Assembly (NCBI GenBank): GCA_026706445.1
Contig: JAPOYT010000085.1
Span: forward strand, 1-34,079
DNA: 34,079 nt
Reading direction: 5' to 3'
DNA from: Chloroflexota bacterium
Lineage (GTDB): Bacteria; Chloroflexota; Anaerolineae; Aggregatilineales; Phototrophicaceae
This document shows, in pieces, positions 2,391 to 21,561 of the stretch (its first letter is position 1; each line of letters opens with the position of its first letter). Under the pieces are notes generated by a model that was not told the DNA's origin, ran no database searches, and saw nothing but the letters and a program-made list of their open reading frames with translations. The position numbers were made by a program, and so were the translations under genes.

Positions 2391-3476
2391 CTACTTTGAG
2401 GATTTCTCCCGATTGCATTTCCGGCAGAGCATCTGGCAGTTTTCTTCGATTGTTTTGCCGCCATCCGACCAAGGCCTGATGTGGTCGGCTTCCATGTCGG
2501 AAATGTCAAATGAATTATCGCAAATCGCGCATTTGCCCGCTTGCATCTCGTAGACCTTCTGCTTCATTCCCGCCTTGAATGCGCGTATATTCAAGCGCTT
2601 TTCATCGCCAGTGAGAATATATGAGTAAATCCCTCTTTTATTTTCTACGTCATCGTCAAGGATGAGACGCGCGGTTTCCGCCTCAATCGCATCTGGATCA
2701 AGCGCGGCGTCTTTGTAGGTGTTATAGAGCAAGCCCCAATCCACGCCTTTCATGATATTCTTGCGCTTTTTCGTGAATGTCGATTCTACCCAATCGATTA
2801 CCTCTCGGAAATACTCCCACAACGGCGCGGCGCTTTTGTCGTGCTGATGTATTCCCATGTAGTCTTCAATGTCGTTGTCGCTAACCCACTTGATAACTGT
2901 TTCGAGGTAATCTTGGCGGATCGGGGAGCCGCTCATGTAATCGCCGCCCAATCCCGCAGCCGGGCAGCCCGACTTGCTGAAATACCGCTTGGCGTCCGAT
3001 ACCCATGACCCGGAGTAAACGGCGTTGCGGAGTTCCTGATCGTACAACTTCTCGCCTGCGATATTCACCGTCCTGAACCAATCCAACTTGTCTCTGTGAC
3101 TGCCAGTACAGACATAGACCATCAATTCGTAATTGAGTATAGATTCTTGTTCTTCGAGCGGCAAATTGTGGAAGTAGCGCCCGTCTACCGAGAAATCGCT
3201 TTTGAGATACTGCGCGATAGAGATAGTCCGCTGCTGACCGTCGATGATTTCGTAAGCGCCGTCGTCTCGAACTGACCAGTACATGACATTCAACGGGAAG
3301 CGCTTGATGATGGAAGTAATGACGGCTTCGCGCTGCTTGCCCTTGTAGATGAACTCGCGCTGGAAGGGCGGGCGGATATCAAGCGCCCCGCCATAGCCGA
3401 CCACGCCGCCTTCGCCGTCATCGTAGTAGCCAGCGACCAGATCGCGCACGCTGAGGTCCAGCAGTTCGATTTTCAT
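2391..3476 (-). CDS. DUF262 (GmrS-like/ParB-like) plus HNH endonuclease protein
   Basis: The preferred start is the ATG at 3476 (361 residues) because AGGAG lies 8 bases before it; an ATG 12 codons further upstream has no such site. Residues 1-100 are a DUF262 domain, with RPPFQREFIY near 35-44 and the hallmark DGQQRT at 79-84, a nucleotide-hydrolysing ParB/sulfiredoxin-like fold found in GmrSD type IV restriction enzymes and BrxU. The C-terminus (316-361) is a zinc-type HNH nuclease: CAIC, then ADHIRPWSDGG with the catalytic-type DH at 331-332, then CRKC. This is a plain HNH rather than the DUF1524 of GmrD. With the adenine methyltransferase 0.4 kb upstream it is the likely restriction subunit; that role is inferred from context. 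A hairpin repeat lies about 50 bases upstream of the start. Confidence 0.88.
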   Translation of the reverse strand: MKIELLDLSVRDLVAGYYDDGEGGVVGYGGALDIRPPFQREFIYKGKQREAVITSIIKRFPLNVMYWSVRDDGAYEIIDGQQRTISIAQYLKSDFSVDGRYFHNLPLEEQESILNYELMVYVCTGSHRDKLDWFRTVNIAGEKLYDQELRNAVYSGSWVSDAKRYFSKSGCPAAGLGGDYMSGSPIRQDYLETVIKWVSDNDIEDYMGIHQHDKSAAPLWEYFREVIDWVESTFTKKRKNIMKGVDWGLLYNTYKDAALDPDAIEAETARLILDDDVENKRGIYSYILTGDEKRLNIRAFKAGMKQKVYEMQAGKCAICDNSFDISDMEADHIRPWSDGGKTIEENCQMLCRKCNREKSSK

Positions 3477-3523
3477 TGTGGGCTCCTGACTGGAATTATT
3501 CGCGCCACGCAAAGCGTTAGCAC

Positions 3524-3574
3524 TGTAGGGGCGAGCGAAGGTTTGTGTCTACGCAACCCGTTGGGTCGCCCGCC
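3524..3574. repeat. Interspersed hairpin repeat, copy C (divergent/composite)
   Basis: The left end TGTAGGGGCGAGC matches copies A and B at 783-897. The right end carries a different hairpin, ACCC-GTT-GGGT, closing with TCGCCCGCC. The middle holds GTGTCTACGC, which recurs at 29818. It looks like a fusion of two variants of one repeat family. It lies between the DUF262-HNH gene and the small membrane protein. Confidence 0.65.
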
Positions 3575-3584
3575 GCAACTTAAC

Positions 3585-3612
3585 TTGAGAGCTTGGCATA
3601 AACTGCTATACT
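3585..3612 (+). promoter_or_regulatory. Predicted sigma70-type promoter of the small membrane protein
   Basis: The -35 TTGAGA (3585-3590) and -10 TATACT (3607-3612) are separated by 16 bases. The ATG of the downstream gene is 37 bases beyond the -10. This is one of the better consensus promoters in the window. Confidence 0.55.
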
Positions 3613-3649
3613 AGAGACAGCACAGATAACATATCACGAGAGACATCGT

Positions 3650-13388: not shown

Positions 13389-16300
13389 ATGAACCTCCCC
13401 CTCGACAACATCGGACGCTGGCGCTGCATCGGTCCCTTCCGCGGCGGACGCGTCGTCACCGTCGCCGGCGACCCGCGCGATATCGGCACGTTCTATTTCG
13501 GCGCTTGCGCAGGCGGCGTTTGGAAGACGGATGACGCCGGGCAATATTGGCGCAATATCTCCGACGGTTTCTTCAATACCGCCTCTGTCGGCGCGCTGGC
13601 GGTATCGGAAGCCGACCCCAATGTAATCTACGCCGGCACAGGAGAAGCGACCATTCGCATTGATGTCTCGCACGGCGATGGCGTTTACAAGTCGGCAGAT
13701 GCGGGGCGCAGTTGGAAGCACATCGGTTTGGAGGACACGCGTCATATCGGGAAGGTTCGCATTCATCCACAGGATCCGGATACGGTCTTCGTGGCGGCGC
13801 TGGGGCATGCCTTCGGAAGGAATCAGCAGCGGGGCGTCTTCCGCTCGACCGACGGCGGCGAGAATTGGGAGCAAGTTCTCTTCGTCAGCGACAAGGCGGG
13901 CGCGGGCGATTTGAGCATTGATGGCAACAATCCGCGCATCATCTACGCTTCGATTTGGGAAGCCTACCGCAACTTCCACATGATCAGCAGCGGCGGCGAA
14001 GACAGCGGCATCTGGCGTTCAATGGACGGCGGCGACACCTGGGAGAACATCTCATCGAAGAAAGGCTTGCCGAGAGGTATCTTGGGGAAGATCGGTATCG
14101 CGGCATCGCCGGCGCAATCGGGACGTGTATACGCCTTGATTGAGCACGAAGAGGGCGGCATGTACCGCTCGGATGATTATGGCGACAGTTGGCGCTTTGT
14201 AGCGCGCAACAACGACATCATCTCGCGCGCCTGGTATTACATGCACCTGACGCCAGATCCGCAAGACCCGGATACGGTATACGTCAACAATTTGCGCTTT
14301 TGGAAGTCGGTTGACGGTGGCAAAACATACTCAGCGATTGGCACGCCGCATGGAGACAATCACGATCTGTGGATCGATCCACAGAATCCAAAGCGCATGG
14401 TGCAGGGCAACGACGGCGGCGCCTGCGTCTCGCTGAATGGAGGCGCCACCTGGTCGAGCATTTTCAACCAGCCGACGGCGCAGTTCTATCATGTGGCGGC
14501 CGATAATCGCGATCCGTATTTCGTTTACGGTACGCAGCAAGACAATAGCAGCATCGCCGTGCCAAGTCGCAATGAGAAGTCCTCGCTGATGTGGATGGAT
14601 GGCTTCATCGCCGGCTCGGGCGAGAGCGGCTATATCGCGGTCAAGCCCGATGATGACAACATCATTTACGTCGGCGCGATTGGCAGTTCGCCCGGCGGCG
14701 GCAACTGCCTGCAACGTTATGATCATCGAAGCAAGCAATTGCGGCTGGTGACGACCTGGCCCGAAATGACATCAGGAGAGGCGGCCGCCGATCTCGAATA
14801 TCGTTTCGCCTGGACCTATCCGATTCTTTTCTCGCCGCATGATGCCAACACGATCTATGTCGGTGGCAATCGGATCATGAAATCCACCGACGAAGGGCAA
14901 AGTTGGCAGGCGATCAGCCCGGACTTGACGCGCGCGGATCCGACCACGCTGCAGATTACCGGCGGTCCAATCAATCGCGACGGCGCGGGCGCTGAGGTAT
15001 ACGCGACGGTATTTGCTTTGGCGGAATCACCGCATCGGCCGGGCGTCATTTGGGCTGGCTCGGATGATGGTCTGGCGCATATCAGCCGGGACAACGGCGA
15101 AACTTGGGATGATATTACGCCGGCGGAGCTGCCTGAATGGTCGATGGTCAGTATGCTGGAGCTTTCGCCGCATGATCCGGCGACTTGCTATCTGGCGGCG
15201 ATTCGTTACAAGTTGGATGACTATTCGCCCTATCTGTTCAAAACGACGGACTATGGGGCGACCTGGACGCGCATCAACGACGGCATTCGCGAGGACGACT
15301 TCACGCGGGTGATTCGCTGCGATCCGGCGCGCCGCGGTCTGCTATACGCCGGTACCGAAACGGGCGTCTACATCTCCTTTGATGATGGCGCCAACTGGCA
15401 GCCATTTCAGTTGAATCTGCCGGTGTCGCCGATCCACGATTTGCTGGTGAAGAATGGCGATTTGATCGCCGCCACGCATGGACGTTCATTTTGGATTCTC
15501 GACGACCTGACGCGAATTCATCAACTGCCCGACGACTTTGACAGTGCAGGCGCGCTTCTGCTCAAACCGCGCGATACGCAGCGACTCCTGGAAAGCATTG
15601 ACGCGCGCAGGCTGGTCGATCAGCCGGGCAAGACTTACCAAAGCTCAACCGGTGTCGTGGCGGCTTATACGCATTCGGTCACGCCCGAGAGTGTGGTCGA
15701 GCGTGAGTTTCTTGATTCGGGAGAGAATCTGCCTCGCGGCGTCTTGATTAGCTATTTCTTGCGCGAAGCGCCGGCGGGCAAGATCACGCTGAAAGTTTCG
15801 AACGCGAATGGCGCCCAATTATGCGAATTCAGCAGCATGGATGAGGCCGAACGGCAGAAACAGAAAAATAAGCCTGACAAGTCGATTGTGTACATCACGG
15901 CGAAACCGGGCTGGAATCGATTCGTCTGGGATATGCGCCTGCCGACTTCGCCCGCGATCGAAGGCAAAGATCCGCAATTCGAGCGGATGCCGGGCCCGAC
16001 CGTAACGCCAGGCAGGTATCAGCTTTGCCTGCAGGTTGACGGCGAAGAATTGACTCAGTCATTCGACTTGCTCAGGGATGTCGCATCGTCCGCTTCCGAT
16101 GACGACCTGCGGAAGCAGTTTGATCTGTTGATGGATATCTTCCAGTTGTATGCGGACGCCGCCAGGACAATTAATGCCATGCGGCGACAACGGGAGCAGC
16201 TGAAGAAACTTGCCGAGCGGCTGACCGACAGCGACGAATATGACGGTCTTGCCAACACTTTGACTAGTCTGAAGTACCAGATTCTCGAAATAGAGAAGGG

Positions 16301-16556
16301 CATCTTCATTCCCGATCTGCGTGAAGGCTGGGCGGGGCGGCTGAATCAGGGAACCGATCCATTACGGCGGTTAAGCGCCTTGCCGTCGGTGGTGGGCTTG
16401 GGCGAGTTTCCGCCGACCGAGCAAGCCTATGCCGTTTACGAAAAACTGGCAGGAATTATCAAGGGTCGTATGCGCCAATTTGAAGAGTTGAGCGACGGGG
16501 ATATCGCCGCGTTAAATCGTAGACTGACCGAGAAGGGAATTGGACTCGTCGGATAA
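13389..16556 (+). CDS. Very large Asp-box (BNR/sortilin-like) beta-propeller protein
   Basis: This 1055-residue protein carries at least ten Asp-box motifs of the form S/T-x-D-x-G-x-x-W, for example KTDDAGQYW, KSADAGRSW, RSTDGGENW, RSMDGGDTW, RSDDYGDSW, KSTDEGQSW, RDNGETW, KTTDYGATW and FDDGANW. They cover roughly residues 40-680 and imply two beta-propellers. The last 350 residues hold a beta-rich domain and a helical, coiled-coil-prone segment. Relatives are annotated as glycosyl hydrolases or VPS10/sortilin-like proteins, with no proven reaction for most. No signal peptide or membrane segment follows the ATG at 13389, and the upstream frame is closed, so the protein appears cytoplasmic. 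No good ribosome site is visible. Confidence 0.9.
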   Translation: MNLPLDNIGRWRCIGPFRGGRVVTVAGDPRDIGTFYFGACAGGVWKTDDAGQYWRNISDGFFNTASVGALAVSEADPNVIYAGTGEATIRIDVSHGDGVYKSADAGRSWKHIGLEDTRHIGKVRIHPQDPDTVFVAALGHAFGRNQQRGVFRSTDGGENWEQVLFVSDKAGAGDLSIDGNNPRIIYASIWEAYRNFHMISSGGEDSGIWRSMDGGDTWENISSKKGLPRGILGKIGIAASPAQSGRVYALIEHEEGGMYRSDDYGDSWRFVARNNDIISRAWYYMHLTPDPQDPDTVYVNNLRFWKSVDGGKTYSAIGTPHGDNHDLWIDPQNPKRMVQGNDGGACVSLNGGATWSSIFNQPTAQFYHVAADNRDPYFVYGTQQDNSSIAVPSRNEKSSLMWMDGFIAGSGESGYIAVKPDDDNIIYVGAIGSSPGGGNCLQRYDHRSKQLRLVTTWPEMTSGEAAADLEYRFAWTYPILFSPHDANTIYVGGNRIMKSTDEGQSWQAISPDLTRADPTTLQITGGPINRDGAGAEVYATVFALAESPHRPGVIWAGSDDGLAHISRDNGETWDDITPAELPEWSMVSMLELSPHDPATCYLAAIRYKLDDYSPYLFKTTDYGATWTRINDGIREDDFTRVIRCDPARRGLLYAGTETGVYISFDDGANWQPFQLNLPVSPIHDLLVKNGDLIAATHGRSFWILDDLTRIHQLPDDFDSAGALLLKPRDTQRLLESIDARRLVDQPGKTYQSSTGVVAAYTHSVTPESVVEREFLDSGENLPRGVLISYFLREAPAGKITLKVSNANGAQLCEFSSMDEAERQKQKNKPDKSIVYITAKPGWNRFVWDMRLPTSPAIEGKDPQFERMPGPTVTPGRYQLCLQVDGEELTQSFDLLRDVASSASDDDLRKQFDLLMDIFQLYADAARTINAMRRQREQLKKLAERLTDSDEYDGLANTLTSLKYQILEIEKGIFIPDLREGWAGRLNQGTDPLRRLSALPSVVGLGEFPPTEQAYAVYEKLAGIIKGRMRQFEELSDGDIAALNRRLTEKGIGLVG

Positions 16557-16640: not shown

Positions 16641-18062
16641 CTAATGGAGATCGTCTATCGCGCGAATCATTGCTTTTCCAATTGTGAGCATCGCTTGTGG
16701 ATCATCCCTGTCTTCCAGCAGGATGACGAAGGAGATTGGCGACTTGTCGGGCGACTGGTAAAAGCCATTCAGCCAAATCTGCTTGCTTTCTCCTGATTGC
16801 GACAGGGCGACTTGCGCGCCGACAGCCCCAGGGACAGATTTGAATTCGCCCAGCAACTTGTGCCAGGCCCGGCGCAATATCAGCCGCAATTCCTGAGCCA
16901 CATCGGCGCTCATGATCGGCACGACTGTCGAGTCGCGCATTGTCTTTTGCCACTGGTCTTCATTTGGAGGTCGCGTTGCCGAAAGGATCTGTGGCGCAGG
17001 GGCGCCGCCATCGGTAGCGATTGCCGCCATGATGGCGGCCAGGTGCAGAGGTGTGGTGGTCAAGTCGCCTTGGCCCAGCGCCGACCGCAGCGCTAGCGTA
17101 TCGGGGTCCAGTGTGCCCTCGGCTAGAGATGACCGGAGGTCTGTCAGTTCGGGCTCGGCAAAACCGCCCAGCGCCTTCGGATTATCAAAAGCGTAAGGCG
17201 CCAGGATACTGTCCAAGTCGATTGCGGCATCGGCGAGATAATATGATTGGAAAGGTGCTGGGCAGCCGTGGGCATAAGCATCGGCGAGCGAAAGTTCAGC
17301 TTGTATCGATTTTATGACGCACGCTAGTGTCATGCCGTCTTGAAACTCAATTGGCGCGGAAGCCTGGGGAAAACGCTGCGACAGATCGAAATCGGAGGCG
17401 GCCGCATGCGCCAGCAAGACGGTGTACATCGCGCCGCCAAGTTGATACCGGCCTTGGAGCGCGCGGTTGAAAAATGGTTGCCCGTCGGCTTCAATCAGGT
17501 ATTCCCAATCGTCTTCAAGCGTATTGGGGTCATAAGTTGGCTGGCTGATCAGAGCCAGGACTCGGCCGGATTGCGCCTCAAGGACAACCGCCGCGGCGCG
17601 CGCGTCGCCAATAGCGTTGACCAGCGCCGTTTGCAAGCGCGCGTCGATCGCGAGCCTAATATCGGAGCCAACCTGAGGCCGGTTCAGCAGCCCCCGGTTG
17701 ACATAATCTTGCAGCGTCTGTATCTCGCTTGAGCCGGAAAGGAGCGCGTCAAATGCTGATTCGGCGCCGCTTACCCCGTAACGCAGGCTGTAATAGCCAG
17801 TGGCGCTATAAGTAGCGGGTCGGAGATAGCGGCGCGTCAATGCGCCATCCTGAACTATGGATTCAGCAAGAAGCTGTTGGTTGCGGTCAAATATGCTCCC
17901 GCGTTGAATGGCGGCCAGCGCTTCGATCAGTCTGGGATTGTCGGCGCGCAAGAGAAGCGAGTCGCGGCCCGCAACCGCCCAGTATGTTGCCGACAGTCCT
18001 ATCAGCAGCAGACAGGCTAGCGATCCGAGAAGCAGATGACGAATTCCGCGTGAGAATGCCAT
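16641..18062 (-). CDS. pbpA: PbpA-like class B penicillin-binding protein with degenerate active site
   Basis: This 473-residue protein has an N-terminal membrane anchor (residues 9-31), a short dimerisation-type region with RGSIFDRN (54-61), and a transpeptidase-like domain from about 135. The fold landmarks of PbpA/FtsI survive: EAQSGRVLALISQPTYDPN, then FFNRALQGRY, then the late RSALGQGDLTTTPLHLAAI. All three catalytic motifs are altered: the SxxK segment (PGSTFK in active enzymes) reads LGGAMY at 208-213, SxN reads GCP at 266-268, and KTG reads SQSG at 421-424. The frame is intact, so it looks like a maintained pseudo-enzyme. Its start follows the rodA stop codon immediately (TAGATG). It may act as a structural activator of RodA. 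Its stop lies 84 bases from the convergent propeller gene. Confidence 0.85.
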   Translation of the reverse strand: MAFSRGIRHLLLGSLACLLLIGLSATYWAVAGRDSLLLRADNPRLIEALAAIQRGSIFDRNQQLLAESIVQDGALTRRYLRPATYSATGYYSLRYGVSGAESAFDALLSGSSEIQTLQDYVNRGLLNRPQVGSDIRLAIDARLQTALVNAIGDARAAAVVLEAQSGRVLALISQPTYDPNTLEDDWEYLIEADGQPFFNRALQGRYQLGGAMYTVLLAHAAASDFDLSQRFPQASAPIEFQDGMTLACVIKSIQAELSLADAYAHGCPAPFQSYYLADAAIDLDSILAPYAFDNPKALGGFAEPELTDLRSSLAEGTLDPDTLALRSALGQGDLTTTPLHLAAIMAAIATDGGAPAPQILSATRPPNEDQWQKTMRDSTVVPIMSADVAQELRLILRRAWHKLLGEFKSVPGAVGAQVALSQSGESKQIWLNGFYQSPDKSPISFVILLEDRDDPQAMLTIGKAMIRAIDDLH

Positions 18063-19370
18063 CTAAGTCCCTTCTGCCTGGCGCGCAGGCTCTGCCATGG
18101 CAGAAAGGCGGAGCAATAAGCCTGTCATGGTGAAGCAGACAAGCAGAGAACTTCCACCGTAGCTGACGAAGGGCAGCGTGACGCCGGTCAGCGGCAGCAG
18201 TTTTAGGACACCGGCCATGATCATTAGCGCTTGAACGACCAGCATCATGGTCAAACCAATTGCCAGCAGTTTATGAAAGGCGCGTCCAGAAGGCGCAAGA
18301 CCGATTGTGAGTCCGCGGAATGCAAGCGCAGCGAAACAACTCAAGACGCAGATTACGCCGAGCAAACCCCATTCTTCCGCCAGCGCCGCGAAGACAAAGT
18401 CGGAATGAGCCACGGGAATATAACCCGGCGAGCCAAGGCCGACACCCGTGCCGAATATGCTGCCGGCGCCAAAAGCCATCAGGCTTTGCACGATTTGGTA
18501 GGCGCGCCCATCGGACTCGGGCCAGGGATTCAACCAGATGTCCACGCGCAGCCTTACCACATCAAATAGGTGATACGCAACTATCGCGGCGATGATGATC
18601 AATAGGGCGCCGCCGAGCAGGATACGGGCGTCGTCGCTTGTCAAATAAAGGAGCAAGAGGAAGACAACGAAGAATAGCGTAGCCGCGCCGAGGTCACGCT
18701 GCCAGATTAGAATCACCAGCGAAAGCAGCCACATGATCAGCATGGGTCCGATGAGCCGCGGCGAAAACGCGCGTGTCCTGCCGCCATCACGGGCGTCCGC
18801 GCGGATTGCCGTGCTCTGTTCGCCGAGATAACTGGCCACGAAGGCAACGAGTATGATCTTCATGAATTCTGATGGTTGAATGTAAAATGCGCCCAGGCTG
18901 AGCCATAGGCGAGGCGCGAATGCGAAGCCCGAGGGATTGCGGCCGAAAACGATGGTGGCGAGAAGCAAGAGAAGCGCGAGAGCCAAAACAACGTAACGAT
19001 AAATGCGCAGCCAGCGCAAGATATGAGGGGCGAGCGCCACGGCGAGCAGCGCGGCTACGCTGATGACTAGCCAAAGCGCCTGTCGCTCGGCGAAAGACGG
19101 CGCGAGTCGATATATGGCGACCAGCCCCCAGCCGCTCAACAACATCGCCAGCGGGAAGAGCAAGCGATCGTGCGCGGGAAGATAACGGTTCAGCAACGCG
19201 GCGCCAGCTAGCGCGCAGGCGATCCATACGGCGAATGCAGTCCAGACATCGGAGCCTGACGGTCGCGTCAATGACATGGATGCCATGCCAGCGAAAACGA
19301 ATATGCTGGCGGCGACGAGCAGCATGCTATGCAGTTGTCGAGAATACGGTAATTCTACGCTAGGCCTCAT
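18063..19370 (-). CDS. rodA: SEDS peptidoglycan polymerase, RodA/FtsW family
   Basis: This 435-residue polytopic membrane protein has about ten hydrophobic segments. SEDS enzymes polymerise lipid II into glycan strands and are activated by a partner class B PBP. The conserved LGAFYIQPSEFMKI is at 159-172. The catalytic-type Asp lies in WQRDLGAATL (Asp226). WPESDGRAYQIVQSLMA, then VAHSDFVFAALAEEWGLLG and GVTLPFVSYGGSSLL are the family signatures of the second half. All look intact, unlike those of the downstream PBP partner. The start ATG at 19370 is 9 bases after the mtnP stop codon, and pbpA begins right after the rodA stop, so the three are one transcription unit. Confidence 0.93.
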   Translation of the reverse strand: MRPSVELPYSRQLHSMLLVAASIFVFAGMASMSLTRPSGSDVWTAFAVWIACALAGAALLNRYLPAHDRLLFPLAMLLSGWGLVAIYRLAPSFAERQALWLVISVAALLAVALAPHILRWLRIYRYVVLALALLLLLATIVFGRNPSGFAFAPRLWLSLGAFYIQPSEFMKIILVAFVASYLGEQSTAIRADARDGGRTRAFSPRLIGPMLIMWLLSLVILIWQRDLGAATLFFVVFLLLLYLTSDDARILLGGALLIIIAAIVAYHLFDVVRLRVDIWLNPWPESDGRAYQIVQSLMAFGAGSIFGTGVGLGSPGYIPVAHSDFVFAALAEEWGLLGVICVLSCFAALAFRGLTIGLAPSGRAFHKLLAIGLTMMLVVQALMIMAGVLKLLPLTGVTLPFVSYGGSSLLVCFTMTGLLLRLSAMAEPARQAEGT

Positions 19371-19379
19371 CGTCCCGCG

Positions 19380-20258
19380 CTAGTTGGCTTCAAGCCCGAG
19401 CGCGCGCGCGAGGATTGGACGCAGCCGCGCGATTATCGTCGGATCCATTGCTTCGCGCGAGGTCGCTATGGCGGTATCGAGGGCGGTGTGCGCTGGCGTC
19501 TGTCTGTCTTCATCTAGTTGCGCGATTGCCTCGACCAGCGCCTTCTCTACGGTTTCGACATTCTTGCTCAGCGTTTGAATCACCATATCCGAGGTGACCG
19601 CTTCTTCTTCGGCGTGCCAACTGTCGTAGTCGGTGACGTGCGCCAGCGAGGCGTAGTCGATTTCCGCTTCGCGCGCCAAGAATGCTTCAGGCGCAGCCGT
19701 CATGCCGATCAGGTCACAGCCCCAGGCGCGGAACAAATGGCTCTCGGCGCGGGTGGCGAAGCGCGGCCCGTCTTCGATCAGAAAGGTCCCGCGGCGATGG
19801 ACAAGGCCGCCGACCGCTTCGACGGCATCGGCAATGAGGCTGCGCAAGTAATCGCTCATTGGGTCGGCGACGGATACGTGCGCCACCACGCCATCTTCAA
19901 AGAAAGAACGCGCTCGTGTATGAATCGTGTAGTCGACGATTTGATCGGGCGTGATTATGTGTCCTGGCGCGTACTCTTCTCGCAGCGAGCCGACGGCATT
20001 GACGGCGATGATGAAGCGGACGCCCAAAGTTTTCAGCGCAAAGATGTTGGCGCGATAGGGCAGAGTCGACGGCGCCAATACATGCCCTTCGCCGTGGCGG
20101 GGCAGAAAAGCTACCCGCTTTTCGCTGAGGCTGCCCACGCGGATTGTGCCGCTCGGCTTGCCAAAGGGCGTATCGACCTCTACCGTTTCGATATCAGAAA
20201 TCTGATCCATGTTGTAAAGGCCCGATCCGCCGATTACAGCAATCTTTGTCGCTTCCAT
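19380..20258 (-). CDS. mtnP: S-methyl-5'-thioadenosine phosphorylase
   Basis: This 292-residue purine nucleoside phosphorylase family enzyme cleaves methylthioadenosine with phosphate to adenine and methylthioribose-1-phosphate (methionine salvage). The phosphate/nucleoside site motifs are GGSGLY (10-15), PRHGEGH (53-59) and NAVGSLRE (87-94). DGPRFATRAES and DLIGMTAAPEAFLAREAEI, then VTDYDSWH form the family's purine-binding half. A strong ribosome site, GGGAGG, lies just before the ATG. It sits inside an FHA / RodA / PbpA operon, 61 bases after fhaB and 9 bases before rodA, which is not an obvious functional match. A related inosine/MTIP phosphorylase activity cannot be excluded. Confidence 0.93.
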   Translation of the reverse strand: MEATKIAVIGGSGLYNMDQISDIETVEVDTPFGKPSGTIRVGSLSEKRVAFLPRHGEGHVLAPSTLPYRANIFALKTLGVRFIIAVNAVGSLREEYAPGHIITPDQIVDYTIHTRARSFFEDGVVAHVSVADPMSDYLRSLIADAVEAVGGLVHRRGTFLIEDGPRFATRAESHLFRAWGCDLIGMTAAPEAFLAREAEIDYASLAHVTDYDSWHAEEEAVTSDMVIQTLSKNVETVEKALVEAIAQLDEDRQTPAHTALDTAIATSREAMDPTIIARLRPILARALGLEAN

Positions 20259-20319: not shown

Positions 20320-20778
20320 TCAGTTCGCCGATGCGTCAATTTGGGCTTCCAGCGTAAGTTGATAAGTGAGCTCGCCGATTCCGATCAGGTCGCCGTTTGC
20401 GAGTATGGTTCGCTGGTCGATGGCCGCGTCGTTTAGGCGCGTGCCGTTTTTGCTGCGCCGGTCTTCAAGCCACCACTGCCCGTCTTCCAGCACGATGCGC
20501 GCGTGCTCGGCGCTGGCGAAGTCGTCGTTGACAATGATCGAATTGCTGGCTGACCGGCCCAAGGTGGTAATCGCGCTCAATTCGTATGATTCTGCGGCCA
20601 TTTCCGAAGAATCAAGCCGTCGGCATATCAGGTATCCGTATTTTGCGCGCGACGCTTGTAGCTGGCGGTCGAGTTGACGCATACTGCGCCAGACAATTGC
20701 AAACAGGATAATGAGAAAAGCGAGCAGACTCAAACCCGCCAGCAATCGCAAGATTAGGACGGCGACTTCAATGCTCAC
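20320..20778 (-). CDS. fhaB: Membrane-anchored FHA domain protein, FhaB-like
   Basis: This 152-residue protein has one N-terminal membrane segment (5-29), a short basic linker, then an FHA phosphothreonine-binding domain: LGRSASNSIIV with Gly-Arg-Ser at 74-76, SAEHARI (89-95) and RRSKNGTRLN (107-116). It starts with GTG at 20778, 9 bases after the fhaA stop. FhaB/FipA in actinobacteria has the same layout and links Ser/Thr kinase signalling to RodA- and FtsZ-based wall growth. Here no kinase gene is in the window, so the phospho-ligand is unknown. The position upstream of rodA supports a role in cell-wall regulation. Confidence 0.88.
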   Translation of the reverse strand: MSIEVAVLILRLLAGLSLLAFLIILFAIVWRSMRQLDRQLQASRAKYGYLICRRLDSSEMAAESYELSAITTLGRSASNSIIVNDDFASAEHARIVLEDGQWWLEDRRSKNGTRLNDAAIDQRTILANGDLIGIGELTYQLTLEAQIDASAN

Positions 20779-20787
20779 CTTGTCGAC

Positions 20788-21561
20788 CTATTCCTGGCGG
20801 AGGGTCCGCGTTGTTCTGTCTCTTATGCCTTGCCGATAGTCATCGGCGTAAACGAAATCGCTGTGACCGATGCGGATCACATCGCCGTTTTGCAGTCGGC
20901 GTTTGCTAAGGGCGGTGTCGTTAACAAGCGTGCCGCCACGGCTGTTTACATCGTAGAGCGTATATTTGCCGAGGCATCTTCGCTGCTGTACGTGATGACG
21001 CGACACGAAGGCATCGCTGATGATTACATCGTTACTGCTCTCGCGCCCGATATTGATCACGGACTTGATGAGTGGCGCGGCGCCTTGATTGATGAGGTGG
21101 AGATGGGGCCTTTGCTCCGGCTGCCGCTGAACGTCGACCGCTGAAACTGCCGCCATCTTAGCTGTTTTGGCAGTCGAAATCGCGCTATGCGCCGCGCTGA
21201 CCCGCGCCTGATGCGGCGCATAGCCAGGATCGGCGAGACTGGAAACTCCAGGCGCGGCGCGAAGCTGATAACCCGATTCGCTGCTGAGTTCGGCAATGAG
21301 AAGAGCCAGGCGCGCCGAAAACTCCGGAATGCGCGCAATAAACTGCTTGACGCTCTCTGAATGCAAGAAGACTTCGTAGGCATCTGGGGCGACGGGTTGA
21401 TCGCCGCGCATGCCCGAATGGCAAACATTATCTTCCATCGCGCGGAACAATAATATGCCGTTATCGGGCGCGCCGGTTGCGCGCGGGAAGAGGCGGGCAA
21501 AGGCGCCTTCAATCAGGTCCTGCAGTTGACGTTCCAGCTTGTCAATTGGCTTCGCATTCAT
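20788..21561 (-). CDS. fhaA: DUF3662-FHA protein, FhaA-like
   Basis: This 257-residue protein combines an N-terminal DUF3662 domain (about 5-102; LERQLQDLIEGAFARLF opening) with an Ala/Gln-rich linker and a C-terminal FHA domain (about 165-240: INIGRESSNDVIISD, VSRHHVQQRR, then NSRGGTLVND). This is the FhaA organisation known from actinobacteria, where the FHA domain binds a phosphorylated wall regulator (MviN). The start is fixed by the family N-terminus. A TATAAT box ends only 6 bases before the ATG, so the transcript probably begins at the start codon and has no leader. It is the first gene of the fhaA-fhaB-mtnP-rodA-pbpA run. Confidence 0.88.
   Translation of the reverse strand: MNAKPIDKLERQLQDLIEGAFARLFPRATGAPDNGILLFRAMEDNVCHSGMRGDQPVAPDAYEVFLHSESVKQFIARIPEFSARLALLIAELSSESGYQLRAAPGVSSLADPGYAPHQARVSAAHSAISTAKTAKMAAVSAVDVQRQPEQRPHLHLINQGAAPLIKSVINIGRESSNDVIISDAFVSRHHVQQRRCLGKYTLYDVNSRGGTLVNDTALSKRRLQNGDVIRIGHSDFVYADDYRQGIRDRTTRTLRQE

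Follow-up and report, generated by a model that had tools for sequence, protein, structure and literature searches.

A penicillin-binding protein without transpeptidase motifs adjoins an intact RodA in Anaerolineae and is probably its non-catalytic partner

The window, by which we mean the whole stretch of 34,079 nucleotides analysed here, comes from an Anaerolineae genome (a 4.26 Mb draft) of the phylum Chloroflexota, and carries on its reverse strand a gene for a class B penicillin-binding protein (PBP) of the PbpA type adjoining a gene for the SEDS glycosyltransferase RodA (Table 1). The MTAP-like gene upstream of RodA recurs at 47 of the 65 loci with a catalytically dead PBP that were examined, and this gene, the FHA-domain genes beyond it, or both, are found again in many relatives. 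On the other side, a gene encoding Sortilin-Vps10/BNR repeats is convergent with the PBP gene and ends 84 bases away. The TAG stop codon of RodA abuts the ATG of the PBP with zero spacing and in the same frame (18060-18065), an arrangement common to most members of the genus. Since the stop codon varies among them (TAG, TAA or TGA), readthrough that would join RodA and PBP into one chain in this genus is disfavoured, and termination-reinitiation appears the likelier event at this junction.

Table 1. Genes, domains and motif positions at the RodA-PBP locus and the FtsI-like PBP of the same genome
Feature	Position	Strand	Remarks
Sortilin-Vps10/BNR repeat protein	13389..16556	+	1055 aa
PbpA-type class B PBP, catalytically dead as judged from its motifs	16641..18062	-	473 aa, ATG start
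Domains of this PBP			Membrane anchor ~2-30; DNPR and pedestal 41-130; transpeptidase fold 131-473
KTG position, Gln417-Val418-Ala419 (not SQSG 421-424)	16806..16814	-	From alignments
SxN position, Gly266-Cys267-Pro268	17259..17267	-	From alignments
SxxK position, Gly210-Ala-Met-Tyr213	17424..17435	-	From alignments; helix begins at residue 209 in the model
RodA (SEDS glycosyltransferase)	18063..19370	-	435 aa; PF01098, 250 bits
RodA Asp324 (HSDF)	18399..18401	-	Counterpart of the proposed SEDS catalytic Asp
RodA Asp226 (QRDLG)	18693..18695	-	Conserved; counterpart of E. coli RodA D159
Phosphorylase-superfamily (MTAP-like) gene	19380..20258	-	Directly upstream of RodA
FHA-domain protein (FhaB-like)	20320..20778	-	
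FhaA_N and FHA-domain protein (FhaA-like)	20788..21561	-	
FtsI-like PBP	L001:1411-3168		Window genome, contig C210, same contig as FtsW

The PBP has the architecture of its family, with the N-terminal anchor, the PBP_dimer_2 pedestal and the transpeptidase fold all present. Both Pfam domains score above their curated cut-offs (Transpeptidase 51.7 bits against 22.1, PBP_dimer_2 39.9 bits against 27), and an AlphaFold2 model built on an alignment of 49 homologues reached a mean pLDDT of 91.0 and a pTM of 0.88. Its top match among solved structures was PbpA of Mycobacterium tuberculosis (3LO7; Z 39.7, 390 residues aligned at 2.7 A), and a near-relative Anaerolineae genome encodes a PBP 76% identical to the window protein. 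The full-length frame and class B fold that a preliminary description had read from the letters were thereby confirmed. What is absent are the motifs that define the family as enzymes, as SxxK, SxN and KTG are replaced by GxxY, GCP and QVA. Alignment bore out Gly210 and Tyr213 at SxxK and GCP at SxN as originally proposed, and the loss of KTG likewise stands, but its placement at SQSG was off by several residues. Across the whole protein the single S..K lies at residue 437 (SPDK) in a remote loop near the C-terminus and was rejected as an alternative active site, and neither SxN nor K[TS]G occurs anywhere; the claim of lost catalysis thus survives the objection that a suitable Ser-xx-Lys might lie elsewhere in the domain. 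With all three motifs gone and no substitute for them, the protein should be unable to perform the usual transpeptidase chemistry and, by its residues, is related to PbpA by descent without belonging functionally to the enzyme family.

The adjoining RodA has its active-site residues intact, as had been claimed. The Asp226 named in that claim is, however, the aspartate of the QPDLG motif and not the residue proposed to be catalytic in SEDS proteins; the latter belongs to the HTD motif (E. coli FtsW D297, RodA D262; PMC8765783, PMC10449877), and its counterpart here is Asp324. We also considered that RodA had lost its catalytic Asp, the 'DP' residue of loop 4 being Glu285 here, and rejected this because the residue in question is that of the HTD motif, which is intact (PMC8765783, PMC10449877). 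All 119 readable RodA partners of dead PBPs have Asp324, and Asp226, Trp156, Gln165 and the YGG motif show little or no variation among them.

To place the loss in time, homologues were collected from class, family and phylum searches and from fetched loci. In the Anaerolineae alignment 123 loci lack all three motifs and 13 retain every one of them, counts that describe the fetched loci, picked by similarity and mostly from draft genomes, and not prevalence. The dead copies span 19 families, and intact copies within the class come from families f12, f38, f42, f51, f52, f54 and f55. The Ser of SxxK survives in some dead copies, Ser and Lys together in none, and the residues of this first motif vary freely. 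Of 40 loci sampled beyond the class, 39 have intact motifs; the remaining one (L166) is a dead RodA-PBP fusion. In a tree built on RodA together with PBP residues 30-203, the dead copies from the class cluster together (SH-aLRT 98), and family f12, represented by an intact copy (L019) and an eroded one (L094), falls in the same cluster. The dead or intact label changes three times on this tree, compared with a mean of 30.8 times when labels are shuffled. The simplest history would be one old loss with separate losses in L094 and L166. Because the same positions are lost in more than a hundred related loci, chance is excluded as the cause, and a loss unique to the window genome is likewise rejected. 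From its distribution the motif loss is old and conserved in Anaerolineae, and it is kept across these families together with the membrane anchor and pedestal, the regions expected to contact RodA.

Purifying selection seems to act on both genes, with approximate NG86 dN/dS over ten pairs in the genus at 0.24-0.36 in the PBP and at 0.09-0.21 in RodA; values, again approximate, were lower in the N-terminal than in the C-terminal half of the PBP in eight of the ten pairs. The open frame, these ratios and the confidently predicted fold give no sign of gene decay in the window PBP. Conservation among dead homologues is higher in the pedestal and the opening part of the transpeptidase domain than in the remainder, averaging 0.54-0.60 at residues 43-205 and 0.39 at 223-320 and 371-473; in intact PBPs conservation over the same regions is flat at 0.67-0.75, and since the intact proteins are fewer and more alike, only the gradients and not the levels should be compared. 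A few C-terminal positions nonetheless stay conserved in the dead proteins (P338, L339, G352, W371, W430, G433 and E450).

The forms in which the dead PBP occurs are graded. A full-length protein adjoining RodA is found in the window and in most of family f1, and natural RodA-PBP fusions were seen in 39 usable ORFs. Of the fused rows on the tree 42 of 43 are dead, with too few independent contrasts to separate this from shared ancestry, and one fusion outside Anaerolineae (L171) has intact motifs. The window's own genus includes a true fusion of 910 aa (L048), modelled with a pLDDT of 91.4 and a pTM of 0.85; the natural fusions and this model suggest that RodA and the PBP may form a physical complex. 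In several families some dead PBPs are without the SxN region, and the two such examples scanned (L146, L149) gave only partial Pfam Transpeptidase matches. Further along, all three genomes of genus g8 (L270, L271, L272) carry beside RodA a separate remnant of 56-59 aa, comprising the anchor and DNPR and ending just past the latter. In L271, which was read base by base, the overlap of the remnant (3444-3620) with the RodA stop reads ATGA. In genus g190 (L273:2116-3429, L274) nothing further than a PBP-like anchor helix is left, fused to the RodA C-terminus, the proteins ending in YWAVLW and YWAVLWG, respectively. It should be noted that the g8 and g190 remnants are taken as homologous from their position and from the W and DNPR residues they share, and not from a scored match. 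Judged from these sequences, the stretch lost last is the one predicted to contact RodA. The RodA of g8 (L270, L271 2239-3447, L272) keeps HSDF and has lost the W and QPSE motifs of ECL2, and for this reason the SEDS protein itself may be inactive there. Finally, both the PBP and its cognate RodA are missing in seven family genomes (five of the window's genus and two others), so the pair is not indispensable.

The rest of the genome provides for crosslinking. It encodes three SEDS proteins, namely FtsW (L067), a conventional RodA (L068) and the window RodA, and the search for another class B PBP with an intact SxxK found three in which KTG is intact as well (L002, L003, L004); two class A PBPs (L005, L006) are also present. 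By these intact PBPs, crosslinking capacity is predicted to be present in the cell. The pair under study is a third one beside FtsW-FtsI and RodA-PBP2, and as it is lost in some relatives, the designation 'core cell-wall operon' given to it earlier is a little strong.

A second and unexpected case of motif loss was seen in the FtsI-like PBP that shares a contig with FtsW. When relatives of this protein were compared (L191-L219, L250-L269), 25 members of the window's genus (the window genome and L191-L214) had SxxQ or TxxQ, in one instance SxxL, in place of SxxK, and KPG, KAG or MPG in place of KTG. The protein is intact in G351 (L268) of the same genus, in 16 family representatives of other genera and in five of the order, and the loss recurs in one genome each of g8 (L263) and g6 (L269). 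The PBP2-type protein L004 is intact in 30 of 30 loci examined. With the motifs lost in both the pseudo-PBP and the FtsI-like protein, two of the three SEDS partners in the window genome probably cannot crosslink.

We consider it likely that the window PBP is a non-catalytic structural partner of the adjoining RodA, most plausibly its activator or stabiliser. For the RodA-PBP2 complex it has been reported that the anchor is needed for complex formation and the contact between pedestal and ECL4 for stimulation (PMC8078798), and catalytically dead PBP2b and SpoVD are able to support their SEDS partners in vivo (PMC12713402). By analogy, the anchor of the pseudo-PBP would pack on RodA and its pedestal would hold extracellular loop 4 in the active state, in the manner described for RodA-PBP2 and FtsW-FtsI, with RodA making glycan strands that other, intact PBPs of the cell would crosslink. 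The loss of motifs from a kept fold, Asp324 in RodA, the low dN/dS, the N-terminal conservation, the fusions and the anchor remnants together match a pattern in which catalysis is dispensable and contact is not, and so favour such a partner. The activator reading first put forward in the preliminary description is in this sense supported, by these patterns and by the published work on SEDS-bPBP pairs. Two observations speak against it: the absence of the pair from seven family genomes and the g8 RodA without its ECL2 motifs, which fit decay, and the full transpeptidase fold of most members, which a role needing only anchor and pedestal would not by itself explain.

The first of these leads to the alternative that a redundant third SEDS-PBP pair is slowly decaying, two other pairs sufficing and the remnant having no dedicated role. 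The erosion is indeed graded across members, the whole pair has gone from some genomes, the C-terminal half of the PBP is under the weaker constraint and the RodA of g8 is degenerate. Slow decay would, however, have to accommodate the long retention of an intact RodA and a folded partner across 19 families, dN/dS far below 1 and the survival, for longest, of exactly the expected RodA contact, and we therefore regard it as unlikely. The second observation, the full fold kept in most members, could instead mean that the dead transpeptidase domain binds, for example, lipid II, the stem peptide or another envelope component and so regulates or inhibits RodA. The few conserved C-terminal positions would agree with this, and the upstream FHA genes suggest phospho-dependent regulation of the locus, as is known for actinobacterial RodA-PbpA loci. 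We identified no conserved pocket in the domain, however; several families lack the SxN region, and g8 and g190 lack the domain altogether, so that a sensing or inhibiting role, which could apply to full-length members only, seems to us quite improbable. To a different, unrecognised catalysis in the old active site, suggested by the Cys267 conserved in the former SxN motif of full-length homologues, we give hardly any credence, as a Cys at this place is simply the middle residue of the SCN seen in intact relatives, the active-site helix has no Ser/Lys pair, the sole S..K sits far away, the first motif varies freely among dead copies, and several families do without the SxN region.

Among the nearest known systems is the FhaA-FhaB-RodA-PbpA locus of actinobacteria, which shares with the window the fold, the PBP_dimer_2 and Transpeptidase domains and the RodA and FHA neighbours. 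M. tuberculosis PbpA (3LO7, 3UN7) is, however, an active, beta-lactam-binding transpeptidase of which acyl-enzyme structures exist, whereas the window protein is without all three motifs. RodA-PBP2 and FtsW-FtsI likewise join a SEDS polymerase to a class B PBP, with anchor and pedestal as expected contacts, but there both partners are enzymes on separate chains, while in the Anaerolineae pair the PBP is dead and often fused to RodA. SEDS function or division supported without transpeptidase activity has been described for catalytic-dead B. subtilis PBP2b and for C. difficile SpoVD S311A and PBP3 S299A (PMC12713402); these are laboratory point mutants of active enzymes, in contrast to a loss that is natural, complete and old. 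A search of an open-access subset of the literature brought up no account of naturally inactive SEDS-partner PBPs or of natural RodA-PBP fusions in Chloroflexota.

Whether class B PBPs serve SEDS polymerases as enzymes or as allosteric partners has so far been studied with laboratory mutants. In Anaerolineae evolution appears to have separated the two roles, leaving a series that runs from intact enzyme through dead full-length protein, fusion and shortened domain to a bare anchor. The natural fusions may serve as single-chain objects for structural work, and the remnants of 56-59 aa and of a lone helix invite one to ask what minimum of a PBP a SEDS protein requires. With a dead partner one must also ask which enzymes crosslink the strands, as polymerisation uncoupled from crosslinking is a reported futile cycle in E. 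coli. As a more tentative and rather doubtful extension, Anaerolineae might dedicate one SEDS polymerase to a purely activator PBP, making glycan that is never crosslinked by its own partner or a polymer that needs no crosslinks. FtsI of the window's genus might then have gone the same way, leaving crosslinking to the RodA-PBP2-type and class A PBPs, and in the most extreme members the activator would have been reduced to a mere anchor.
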